Below, piece after piece: positions 13,491 through 61,845 of a stretch of 64,000 nucleotides of DNA; the first letter of the stretch is position 1, and every line of letters begins with the position of its first letter. The position numbers and the translations under genes were made by a program. The DNA lies in NCBI RefSeq assembly GCF_001270745.1, contig NZ_KQ434752.1:165125-229124 (forward strand), in the 5' to 3' direction. The notes under the pieces were generated by a model. It was not told the DNA's origin. It saw only the letters and a list, made by a program, of their open reading frames with translations, and did no database searches. The DNA is from Jiangella muralis. GTDB lineage: Bacteria > Actinomycetota > Actinomycetes > Jiangellales > Jiangellaceae.

Positions 13491-13565
13491 GGGCGATTAG
13501 CTCAGCGGGAGAGCGCTTCGTTCACACCGAAGAGGTCACTGGTTCGATCCCAGTATCGCCCACCA
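13491..13565 (+). tRNA. tRNA-Val (anticodon CAC)
   Basis: Full cloverleaf: acceptor GGGCGAT pairs with ATCGCCC (13555-13561), D arm GCTCAGCGGGAGAGC, anticodon stem CTTCG/CGAAG with loop TTCACAC giving CAC, T arm ACTGG-TTCGATC-CCAGT, discriminator A, and an encoded CCA. It decodes GTG. Its body is nearly identical to the Val(GAC) tRNA at 17173 apart from the anticodon arm. A terminator follows 20 bases downstream. Confidence 0.97.
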
Positions 13566-16987: not shown

Positions 16988-17060
16988 GCGGACGTAGCGC
17001 AGTTGGTAGCGCATCACCTTGCCAAGGTGAGGGTCGCGGGTTCGAGTCCCGTCGTCCGCT
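16988..17060 (+). tRNA. tRNA-Gly (anticodon GCC)
   Basis: 73 bases: acceptor GCGGACG pairs with CGTCCGC (17053-17059), discriminator T, anticodon loop TTGCCAA giving GCC, T arm GCGGG-TTCGAGT-CCCGT. CCA is not encoded. First of three clustered tRNAs. Confidence 0.97.
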
Positions 17061-17087
17061 CGGAGCGGGGCTTATGGCCCTCATCAC

Positions 17088-17158
17088 GGTGGAGTGGCCG
17101 AGAGGCGAGGCAACGGCCTGCAAAGCCGTCTACACGGGTTCAAATCCCGTCTCCACCT
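17088..17158 (+). tRNA. tRNA-Cys (anticodon GCA)
   Basis: 71 bases: acceptor GGTGGAG pairs with CTCCACC (17151-17157), discriminator T as expected for Cys, anticodon loop CTGCAAA giving GCA, T loop TTCAAAT. CCA is not encoded. It lies 27 bases after tRNA-Gly. Confidence 0.97.
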
Positions 17159-17172
17159 CGGTAGGAAATCCC

Positions 17173-17247
17173 GGGCGATTAGCTCAGCGGGAGAGCGCTT
17201 CCCTGACACGGAAGAGGTCACTGGTTCAATCCCAGTATCGCCCACCA
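17173..17247 (+). tRNA. tRNA-Val (anticodon GAC)
   Basis: 75 bases with encoded CCA: acceptor GGGCGAT pairs with ATCGCCC, anticodon stem CTTCC/GGAAG, loop CTGACAC giving GAC, T loop TTCAATC. Nearly the same sequence as the Val(CAC) tRNA at 13491, pointing to a duplication. It lies 14 bases after tRNA-Cys, so the three are probably one transcript ending at 17280. Confidence 0.97.
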
Positions 17248-22684: not shown

Positions 22685-22738
22685 GCGTCCGTTGACGTCG
22701 CCTTGTTCTAGGGCGGACGTGCAGCGTTTCGTGCTGTT

Positions 22739-22871
22739 GGCCGTCCCCCTGCTGCCCATGTCTGAGCCGCGCACCCGCGCCTCAAGCGGACTGCTGGGCG
22801 CTTCGCGCGACGATGACCGCTTGCCCCGCGGCCCCGCGGCCTAAGAACGGGCAGCTACCAGGGGGACGGGG
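22739..22871. repeat. Palindromic intergenic element, copy B (inverted relative to A)
   Basis: Ends GGCCGTCCCCCTG (22739-22751) and CAGGGGGACGGGG (22859-22871) form a terminal inverted repeat. The reverse complement aligns with 8467-8605 over its whole length with small indels. No protein coding. Two copies 14 kb apart in opposite orientation. Confidence 0.7.
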
Positions 22872-22986
22872 AAGAACCTCGGGTCGCTGCGCCGCGACCT
22901 CTCGCTGCTCGGCAAGTCCGTCGAGGGCCAACCGGGCACAGCCCGCGCCCGATATGCACCGTTCGCGGGATCCTGCGCCGTGGGCC

Positions 22987-23325
22987 TCCTGGGTGTGAGG
23001 CGCGTCCTGGGTCTCACGCGCGCCGAACACCCATATCGAGCCCAAAAGCGCGCCCCACACCCAGGACCCGCCTCACACCCAGGTTCGTGAGCGCCGACGT
23101 CCTGGTCTGCCGTCACGTCCTGGTCCCCAGTCACGCCACCAGCCCCGAAACCGCCATTGAACGCAACCACAGACCAGGACGTCACACCAGACCAGGACCC
23201 GCCCCGCCGTCCTCAACAGCGAACGTCGTCCTCGATGGCAGAAACCGTCCTCGACCCACCCAGAGCACGACCCCCGATATCGAAGACGACCACCGCGATC
23301 GAGGACGACCACCGCCATCGAGGAC
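22987..23325. repeat. Three palindromic blocks with 18/19-bp word spacing
   Basis: Block 1: TCCTGGGT at 22987 and 23005, and its complement at 23059 and 23077; arms 22988-23012 and 23059-23083 match at 24 of 25. Block 2: GTCCTGGTC at 23099 and 23117, complement at 23172 and 23190; arms match at 24 of 27. Block 3: GTCCTCGA at 23228 and 23247, complement at 23299 and 23318; arms match at 22 of 27. Within every arm two words sit 18 bases apart (19 in block 3). Each block uses its own word, all starting with (G)TCCT. Confidence 0.75.
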
Positions 23326-23372
23326 CCGCCGCGCTCGCCGAGCCGGACTCCCCGTCGCGGCCCCGGCCTGCC

Positions 23373-60665: not shown

Positions 60666-60783
60666 ATCCTGGCTCTGGCGCGCGTCCTGGTCTCCTGTCG
60701 CGTCCTGGTCTGCTGTCGCGTCCTGCGGCCGCTTCTGGCCGAATTGCGCGACGGTGGACCAGGACGCGACGTCAGACCAGGAG
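60666..60783. repeat. 18-bp-phased GTCCTGGTC words in both orientations
   Basis: The word (G)TCCTGG begins at 60666, 60684, 60702 and 60720 (weak first and last), each 18 bases apart; its complement GACCAGGA begins at 60757 and 60775, again 18 apart. It copies the block-2 design and word of 22987-23325. The right end runs into the last codons of the gene at 60772. Confidence 0.7.
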
Positions 60784-61755
60784 GCCGGCACGTGTCCACG
60801 GAACGGACTCGGTCCGCACCGGGCACCGCGCGATGGCTGCGGCGAACCGTGCGGCCAGCCGGCGGCGGTCGTGTCGCGCCAGATCCCAGCCGTATCGCAC
60901 CACCTCCAGCCCGGACTCACGCAGCCGCCACTCGCGTTCCCGCTGCTCAGCGACGACTCGACCGGCATCGAGGCGATCGTCGTACTTCAGCGACCCGTCG
61001 CCCTCGAACACGAGCCAGCGGTCCGGCAGCAGGTGGTCGACCCGGTAGCGAGAGCCGCCGGTGTCGATCCAGACGTTCGACACCGGCACCGGCAGGCGGT
61101 GCTCGATGAAGGTCAGCCGGCCCAGCGTCTCCAGCGGGCTTTCGGCGAATCCGTCGGCCTGCTCGACGACCTACGCGGCGTCGCGGCTGCCCCGCCACCC
61201 GGCCTGGAGGTCGAGCATCGCTTGCAGGTCACCTGACGTCACACCGGACGCCAGTGCCGCGTCCGCGACGACGAGCGCGTCGGCCCGCGGGCCCCAGCGG
61301 GCGAGGTCGACAACCGTACGAGGCAGCGACGTCACCCGGCAGCCGTCGACGTAGACACACTGATCGGGTGGCAACGCCGCCACCCGCACGCTCCCGTACC
61401 GGCTGTTCACCGCCGAACCGGCGCCGTCCATCAGGTACGCCAGCGGCTGGGCGGGCGGCGGCCTGATCGCGGGCAGTCCGTGCACGGCGGCCGCGGACCA
61501 GCCGGCCGCGAACGCGCGAGGGCCGCAGGCGAGCGTGAAGGCCCGGGACCGCAGGCCGAACGCCGTCCACGGGTCGGCTGCCGCGTGGTCCGCCGCGGCG
61601 GCGTAGACACCGCGAGCCAGCCGCACCAGGAGCCCGGAACGCTCCAGCCGGACCAGCCGCGACCTGGTGATGCCGCGCAGCCGAGCCTCGGCCACGCTGA
61701 AGACACCGTGGCCGGCACGGAGCAGCCAGGTGACGTCGTCGGGTGTGATTCGCAT
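60772..61755 (-). pseudogene. AbiEi-like N-terminal/DUF559-type gene with an in-frame amber stop
   Basis: From ATG 61755 the frame runs 194 codons, meets TAG at 61171-61173, and continues in the same frame for another 132 codons to TGA 60772-60774. The N-terminal half holds GVFSVAEARLRGITRSRLVRLERSG and LVRLARGVYA, the AbiEi-type winged helix, and the middle TVVDLARW. The part after the TAG, from ESPLETLGRLTFIEHRLP through LVFEGDGSLKYDD to LRESGLEVVRYGWDL, is the Vsr/DUF559-like nuclease fold with its E..D..K. One base change would restore a ~327-residue protein. Either a recent nonsense mutation, a sequencing error or programmed readthrough. Confidence 0.8.
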
Positions 61756-61807: not shown

Positions 61808-61845
61808 TGTGGACAACATGGCGCCGCTGGCCGGCCTGTGGACAA
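61808..61845 (-). promoter_or_regulatory. Second pair of DnaA-box-like sites
   Basis: On the minus strand TTGTCCACA occurs at 61845-61837 and 61816-61808, starts 29 bases apart, ending 52 bases before the AbiEi-like start. The pair at 20724-20761 has the same spacing and ends 53 bases before the AidB-like start. TGTTGTCCACAG is shared exactly by the first site of each pair. Confidence 0.55.

Follow-up and report, generated by a model that had tools for sequence, protein, structure and literature searches.

Two of the three hairpin blocks described here are probably non-autonomous mobile DNA hairpins served by a protein that joins an AbiEi-type half to a Vsr/DUF559-like nuclease, so that hairpins and gene would form a pair of the REPIN/RAYT kind with a different enzyme. 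REP-type hairpins are widespread bacterial repeats. The window, i.e., the whole stretch of 64,000 nucleotides of Jiangella muralis DNA that was analysed, contains these blocks and a further palindrome beside them:

22736–22871, plus strand: D element, a palindrome of about 136–138 bp with the ends CGTCCCCCTG/CAGGGGGACG, recognised by its end pattern.
22985–23086, plus strand: block 1, B-type 102-bp hairpin element with the word GTCCTGGGT (inverted arms, fold, covariance model; genome row C2:188109-188210).
23098–23199, plus strand: block 2, A-type 102-bp hairpin element with the word GTCCTGGTC (inverted arms, fold, covariance model; genome row C2:188222-188323).
23205–23332, no strand assigned: block 3, C-type hairpin whose arms each hold three words at a pitch of 19, GTCCTCGA (inverted arms, fold).

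A sequence-only reading had pointed to three hairpin-capable blocks of repeated words, and their arms, pitch and folds were borne out. The inverted arms of block 1 (22988–23023 and 23048–23083) are 36 nt long and match at 86%, those of block 2 (23099–23125 and 23172–23198) at 24/27 or 89%, and those of block 3 (23228–23254 and 23299–23325) at 22/27 or 81%; the direct pitch, which was also obtained from TRF, is 18 in blocks 1 and 2 and 19 in block 3. All six single-strand RNA folds (three blocks on two strands) were better than every one of 200 dinucleotide shuffles, with z between -5.98 and -8.71. The gapped word pattern occurs three times in the window against 0.05 expected. The genome search with this pattern that had been proposed proved productive, yielding 31 + 38 matches in 7.27 Mb compared with 3 + 1 for the reversed pattern; by manual count 23 of the 69 bear the family word, and the remainder look like chance matches in coding DNA.

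Despite their different words, blocks 1 and 2 can be aligned along the whole 102 bp, loop included, and are homologous elements of the same geometry. The layout is an imperfect palindrome with a fixed loop and two words per arm at a pitch of 18 bp, in which position i pairs with position 103-i; in the copies from 18 loci and the window the words lie at nearly fixed positions (1, 19, 74 and 92). The description of two words per strand in each block thus holds for blocks 1 and 2, and block 3 departs from it with its three words per arm. Among the distinct elements of the fetched loci, 94 of 98 are exactly 102 nt long, and the pairs were counted in these 94, the four of other length being left out. 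At pair 9–94, 63 of them have T-A and 25 have G-C, and 96% are paired versus 54% under independence of the columns. The same two-sided behaviour was seen for the pairs 10–93, 16–87, 18–85, 27–76, 34–69 and 36–67, and the gaps between the words are poorly paired. In a set of 20 copies the covariation score was 0.178 against 0.095 in shuffles, none of 500 being as high, and this score, the percentage paired and the number of cells changed on both sides were each higher than in any of 500 shuffles and in any slid version. Pairs changed on both sides (13 versus 10.7 in shuffles, 84/500) and pair types (26 versus 24.3, 158/500) were not in excess in these 20 copies. Since kinship of the copies inflates covariation counts, the case for compensatory change rests on the divergent words and not on the p-value. 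On this footing the proposal that constant pitch with changing words means compensatory change stands for blocks 1 and 2 (the pair 9–94 and its like, score 0/500), and block 3 is apparently not part of the family. The mismatches in pairs 1–40 of the 94 elements were considered as a strand signal (252 A.C/C.A versus 96 G.T/T.G) and set aside, a few columns being dominant, some of them unpaired, and the copies being related.

Of 64 distinct word pairs, taken from three genera, 28 have a distance of 43 and 33 one of 61 (43 + 18) between word and complement, one element sometimes contributing more than one pair. From these offsets the two-unit element was apparently derived from a one-unit hairpin by an 18-bp duplication; the elements of the host genus look like the one-unit hairpins of a sister genus with one 18-bp unit added per arm. 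The earlier statement that the layout is not a simple duplication therefore has to be divided: it agrees with the co-variation of the arms and fails for the 18-bp unit, which looks duplicated. At one locus (L034:1530-1680) one arm is extended outward by further degenerate 18-bp units and the other arm is not. Growth of the elements by palindrome slippage and arm-to-arm correction (template switching) with no dedicated enzyme would fit this one-sided extension, the repeated 18-bp units and the co-varying arm words. It cannot, however, make the new distant copies, the absence at an orthologous site or the word matching across a gene that are described below, and we consider it very unlikely as the origin of the elements; slippage or template switching may still account for the doubled 18-bp unit.

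Block 3 appears to represent a separate hairpin family. C-like hairpins recur in composites flanked by D elements, with 70–78% identity when matched alone, and the D end pattern has 57 + 52 = 109 matches in the genome against none in the control. The D family has two subtypes, and by eye its copies differ from one another in a compensatory manner. At several loci A, B or C hairpins are enclosed by two D elements in inverted orientation, and at blocks 1–3 the left copy only was found, 5' of the blocks. Because D precedes the blocks, D pairs enclose A, B or C hairpins elsewhere and C-like hairpins recur in composites, the region is a mosaic of palindromes in the manner of BIMEs. Types C and D were also considered as relatives of gene-linked hairpins; they had no BLAST match within L201–L346, the loci that hold homologues of the nuclease gene discussed below, and for type C no cognate gene came to light.

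The 102-bp family is dispersed. The covariance model search of the J. muralis genome (G000), in which 150 of 11577 candidates were scored, returned 71 rows that correspond by manual count to at least 36 places, since a palindrome usually matches on both strands. With stricter filters the model matched, among 60 genomes, the own genome, 10 of 11 congeners (2 to 67 rows in each positive one), 5 of 10 further genomes within the family and none of 38 outside it. The three outcomes that would have spoken against the sequence-only reading, namely no further copy in the genome, no covariation between arms and no relative in other strains, were thus all contradicted by the at least 36 places, the co-varying arms and the relatives in congeners.

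The gapped pattern, counted as hits against the reversed control, was in strong excess in the host genus in G009 (82/0), G001 (49/2) and G000 (34/3) and likewise in G015 (69/5), G020 (42/1), G019 (24/2) and G018 (19/2). The excess was weak or absent in the other genomes, among them congeners with few copies such as G004, G007 and G003; examples are G004 (12/3), G007 (8/2), G008 (8/3), G021 (7/1), G005 (3/2), G003 (7/7), G016 (6/7) and G017 (10/6); the own words of G017 do not fit the search pattern, and its 10 versus 6 is no clear excess. The low count in G002 (1/0) is explained by its copies being of type B, for which the pattern is unsuited. In four genomes from outside the family the counts were 1/2, 1/10, 4/8 and 7/4. 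A plasmid collection yielded no match, and the sole match among the wider genome contigs (L120) was rejected, as it has the look of a repeat in coding DNA and the best hit of the nuclease-like protein there is not significant (E 0.23). On the G009 chromosome the A/B elements seem oriented by half-chromosome with p 0.008 when breakpoints are left free, among 29 listed places; the corresponding p in G001 is 0.14 (22 places), and GC skew from 20 samples in each of the two genomes was uninformative.

The copies sit in intergenic DNA near the 3' ends of genes. According to our own ORF caller, 33 of 79 loci lie between convergent, 40 between codirectional and 5 between divergent genes, one has a gene on one side only (raw counts), and none of the 79 is inside a called gene. 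Relative to codirectional genes the elements show no preferred orientation (26 versus 26). The suggestion of a structured RNA had to be dropped in view of this balance and of the Rfam search, in which four tRNAs were the only matches above the gathering score in the window. Three of these tRNA genes lie close together at 16988–17244 and one further at 13491–13562.

The occupants of these sites differ between species. Between the convergent genes of locus L174 the J. muralis genome has an A element that is missing between the same flanks in 11 of 11 congeners (the G003 sequence being read in part), and a profile search of the orthologous loci matched the own genome's locus only. By eye, the stops are separated by 13–15 nt in G005, G007 and G009, and other hairpins are found instead in G006 and in G001, G010 and G011. 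At the one orthologous site compared, neither an exact element boundary nor a target-site duplication, as expected for a MITE of a DDE insertion sequence, could be recognised. The site of blocks 1–3, which holds D, B, A and C in the own genome, has another hairpin and C in G009, a D plus others in G001 and G007, and a D-like piece in G011, where a contig end cuts the locus; BLAST of D, B, A and C at this site found none in G002, G003, G004, G005, G006, G008 and G010. Since different modules occupy the same site in different species, hairpin modules are gained and lost at one and the same 3' site. In other species, further hairpin families (GATCATCAACG..., GGGATGCCGTCCCC...) were seen in these 3' positions, namely at L244, L001, L189 and L186.

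Bidirectional transcription terminators, or protectors of mRNA 3' ends, that are under selection at gene ends and spread only incidentally would be expected in such positions. The counts (33 of 78 loci convergent, 40 codirectional, 5 divergent and none inside genes, unadjusted) and the presence of other hairpins at the same 3' site in other species fit such a function. We nevertheless regard it as unlikely, for by eye no T-run follows any of the three blocks, and it leaves unexplained the fixed offsets of 43 and 61, the matching hairpins on either side of one gene family and the clustering of hairpins around that gene.

The gene family in question is present in the window, together with an element of its own:

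60683–60784, minus strand: A-type 102-bp element at the 3' end of the nuclease-like gene (covariance model; genome row C2:225807-225908).
60772–61755, minus strand: gene of an AbiEi-fold plus Vsr-like nuclease, the candidate cognate gene of the hairpins, with an in-frame TAG at 61171–61173.
61808–61845, minus strand: two copies of the motif TTGTCCACA, upstream of the same gene (motif search).

The stop codon of this gene lies inside the first word of the A element at its 3' end. Of the 22 family genomes, 21 contain a homologue, the own one among them, and the first word of a hairpin holds the stop of the gene or gene remnant in G000, G004, G009, G010, G011 and, in another genus, G018. G004 and G010 have only two and four model rows (a place gives roughly two), and either genome has one of its places on the nuclease-like gene. 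A hairpin at the stop was recognised by eye in 17 of 19 close homologues (51% identity or more), the two lacking a whole one having a half (L206 in G003) or a truncated hairpin (L219 in G008). The sole congener with no model match, G005, also has no close homologue, its best one (49%) belonging to another paralogue group. Two genomes run counter to this association: G006 has four model rows and a relic gene only, and G021 has nine rows and no close homologue, its best hit carrying a different word. In an automatic scoring of stems, 65 of 70 homologue loci were usable (five were skipped because the sequence or the stop was missing), and a score above 22, the 95th percentile of the controls, was reached by 19 of the 65 versus 5 of 84 control genes (Mann–Whitney p 0.0017), six of the 19 close homologues being above this value. 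The excess is moderate, since a stem with interruptions gets a low score and most of the distant homologues show no hairpin. At seven genes examined (G000, G001, G002, G003, G007, G009 and G018) no matching 5' hairpin was found, the 3' copy or part of it being the only one. In a second paralogue group, whose proteins end in LPAGWDR or similar, part of the members (L229, L232, L228, L013) have a different large hairpin, CCGGYGGATRCYC..., just 3' of the stop.

The predicted structure of the protein (pLDDT 92.7) resembles the AbiEi antitoxin 6y8q over residues 9–205 (Z 11.5, rmsd 5.4, 182 aligned), I-Bth0305I over residues 210–317 (Z 12.6, rmsd 2.4, 97 aligned) and Vsr (1vsr) over residues 209–317 (Z 9.2, rmsd 2.8, 102 aligned); Vsr-like domains of mitochondrial proteins also reach scores of 8 to 10 on the C-terminal part. 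The model thus predicts an N-terminal half of AbiEi fold and a catalytic domain of Vsr-like fold, i.e., a putative nuclease. An alignment of 28 homologues has 18 invariant columns, among them E209, E213, D244, E255, D257, G258 and K261, and Pfam recognises AbiEi_4 in 26 and DUF559 in 4 of the 28. DUF559 (PF04480) genes of the own genome were also considered as partners; the two weak matches are other genes than the one in the window, and by eye neither is followed by an A or B hairpin. No AbiEii-like partner was seen by eye among the ORFs beside the window copy. For IS200/IS605-type Y1 (HUH) transposases (PF01797) the own genome gave 0 matches, with the control positive in 5 of 14, so that a RAYT was rejected as the cognate enzyme there. 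The TTGTCCACA motifs upstream of the gene resemble DnaA boxes. Eleven of 22 homologues have a TTRTCCACA motif 60–65 nt ahead of the start that was chosen, 12 of 16 close homologues have at least one in the 330 nt upstream, and two of the four in the whole 64-kb window are upstream of the nuclease-like gene.

The AbiEi fold of the N-terminal half allows the hairpins to be read as operator sites of this protein, the dispersed copies being a regulon spread by another enzyme or by recombination; in the accessible part of PMC7319586, AbiEi antitoxins are described as binding inverted repeats in their own promoters. This reading seems to us quite unlikely, as divergent, promoter-only regions make up only 5 of 78 loci and the protein has a conserved nuclease-like core.

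In the sister genus (G015, G017, G019 and G020) the gene stands between two hairpins in all ten homologues of at least 50% identity, the tenth of which is a broken G019 copy. The flanking words differ between genes, even within one genome, yet they match from left to right: for nine genes the permutation p is 2e-5, the own partner ranking first in seven and second or third in the other two. A wider test of this matching gave 5e-6, but one cross-pair in it reflects a shared neighbouring gene. By eye, the dispersed hairpins of G015 and G019 carry the gene-linked word. In G015, hairpins cluster around the gene: 12 of 30 are no more than 130 kb away from it, versus 0.79 expected (P 6e-12, or 1e-9 without the two flanking ones), as calculated for this one genome under uniform placement and at a distance picked after inspection of the list; pattern rows lacking the family word, and two isolated words that share its first half, are not among the 30 places. 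In G015 and G017b the hairpin-gene-hairpin units (L327, L333) border the same host gene end in opposite orientation; this host gene looks by eye like a CTP synthase, and a neighbouring gene is presumably an aconitase.

We infer that this protein acts on the hairpins by binding, cutting and mobilising them. The AbiEi-type half would recognise the arm words, as AbiEi antitoxins do inverted repeats, and the Vsr/DUF559-like half would cut at the hairpin, leading to its being copied into intergenic DNA downstream of genes. The geometry would stay fixed because only hairpins of that shape get recognised, and the words may drift jointly with the protein, giving each gene a word of its own. In the sister genus the gene lies between its two matching hairpins like a small transposon, and in the host genus one hairpin is left at the 3' end of the gene, all others being solo copies. 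As the nuclease-like gene is broken in the own genome, present mobility there would need another source.

A broader conclusion, for which we see an even chance, is that of a second, independently evolved REPIN-like system, in which AbiEi–Vsr fusions and their own hairpins are self-spreading pairs in this bacterial family, a non-HUH nuclease acts on cruciform or single-stranded hairpins and seeds solo copies, and enzyme and word co-evolve, perhaps in a replication-coupled manner through the DnaA-box-like motifs. Among the matches listed from open-access journals, none linked hairpin repeats to AbiEi-, DUF559- or Vsr-like genes. If the conclusion is true, the REP-like way of life evolved more than once, a role is suggested for the poorly understood AbiEi/DUF559-type proteins, and the several natural word–protein pairs per sister-genus genome may serve for direct tests of recognition.

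Among known systems, the CGTC-tagged REPs are likewise palindromic repeats with a CGTC motif. As described in the accessible part of PMC3733652, they have the tag unpaired at one end, are 20–40 bp long and are reported to lack a dedicated transposase; here the word is in the stem and the repeats are longer. Neither "Actinobacteria" nor "Actinomycetales" occurs in that part of PMC3733652. With the AbiE type IV toxin–antitoxin system the protein shares the N-terminal AbiEi fold, and AbiEi has been described as an inverted-repeat-binding protein (PMC7319586, accessible part); it differs in being fused to a Vsr-like nuclease and, beside the window copy, in having by eye no AbiEii-like partner. With Vsr and the EDxHD homing endonuclease I-Bth0305I it shares the predicted fold of the C-terminal domain, in which E, D, E-x-D and K residues are conserved among the homologues; in contrast to I-Bth0305I, no intron or intein was seen and the gene is linked to dispersed hairpins. 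There is much likeness to REPs and REPINs with their RAYTs (REPtrons). The accessible parts of PMC2817692 and PMC3116915 describe palindromic extragenic repeats in tens of copies, inverted word doublets that form a long hairpin, the presence of the repeat on both flanks of its cognate gene, word types that differ between paralogues and mosaic clusters, all of which have a counterpart here; the enzymes tied to the hairpins in those parts are IS200/IS605-type transposases. The linked gene in the present case is AbiEi–Vsr-like and no Y1/HUH transposase was found in the own genome, no GTAG head like that of REPs was seen in the aligned elements, the units are 60–102 bp long, and the flanking hairpins mostly look direct by eye and not inverted. 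The pattern by which RAYTs were defined, a gene flanked by its own repeats with dispersed copies elsewhere (PMC2817692, accessible part), is found in both respects: the extragenic palindromes are dispersed in high copy number, and two own repeats flank the gene in 10 of 10 cases in the sister genus. With this pattern present in the sister genus and its usual enzyme not found in the own genome, hairpins and gene appear to work like a REPIN/RAYT pair without being a member of that class.
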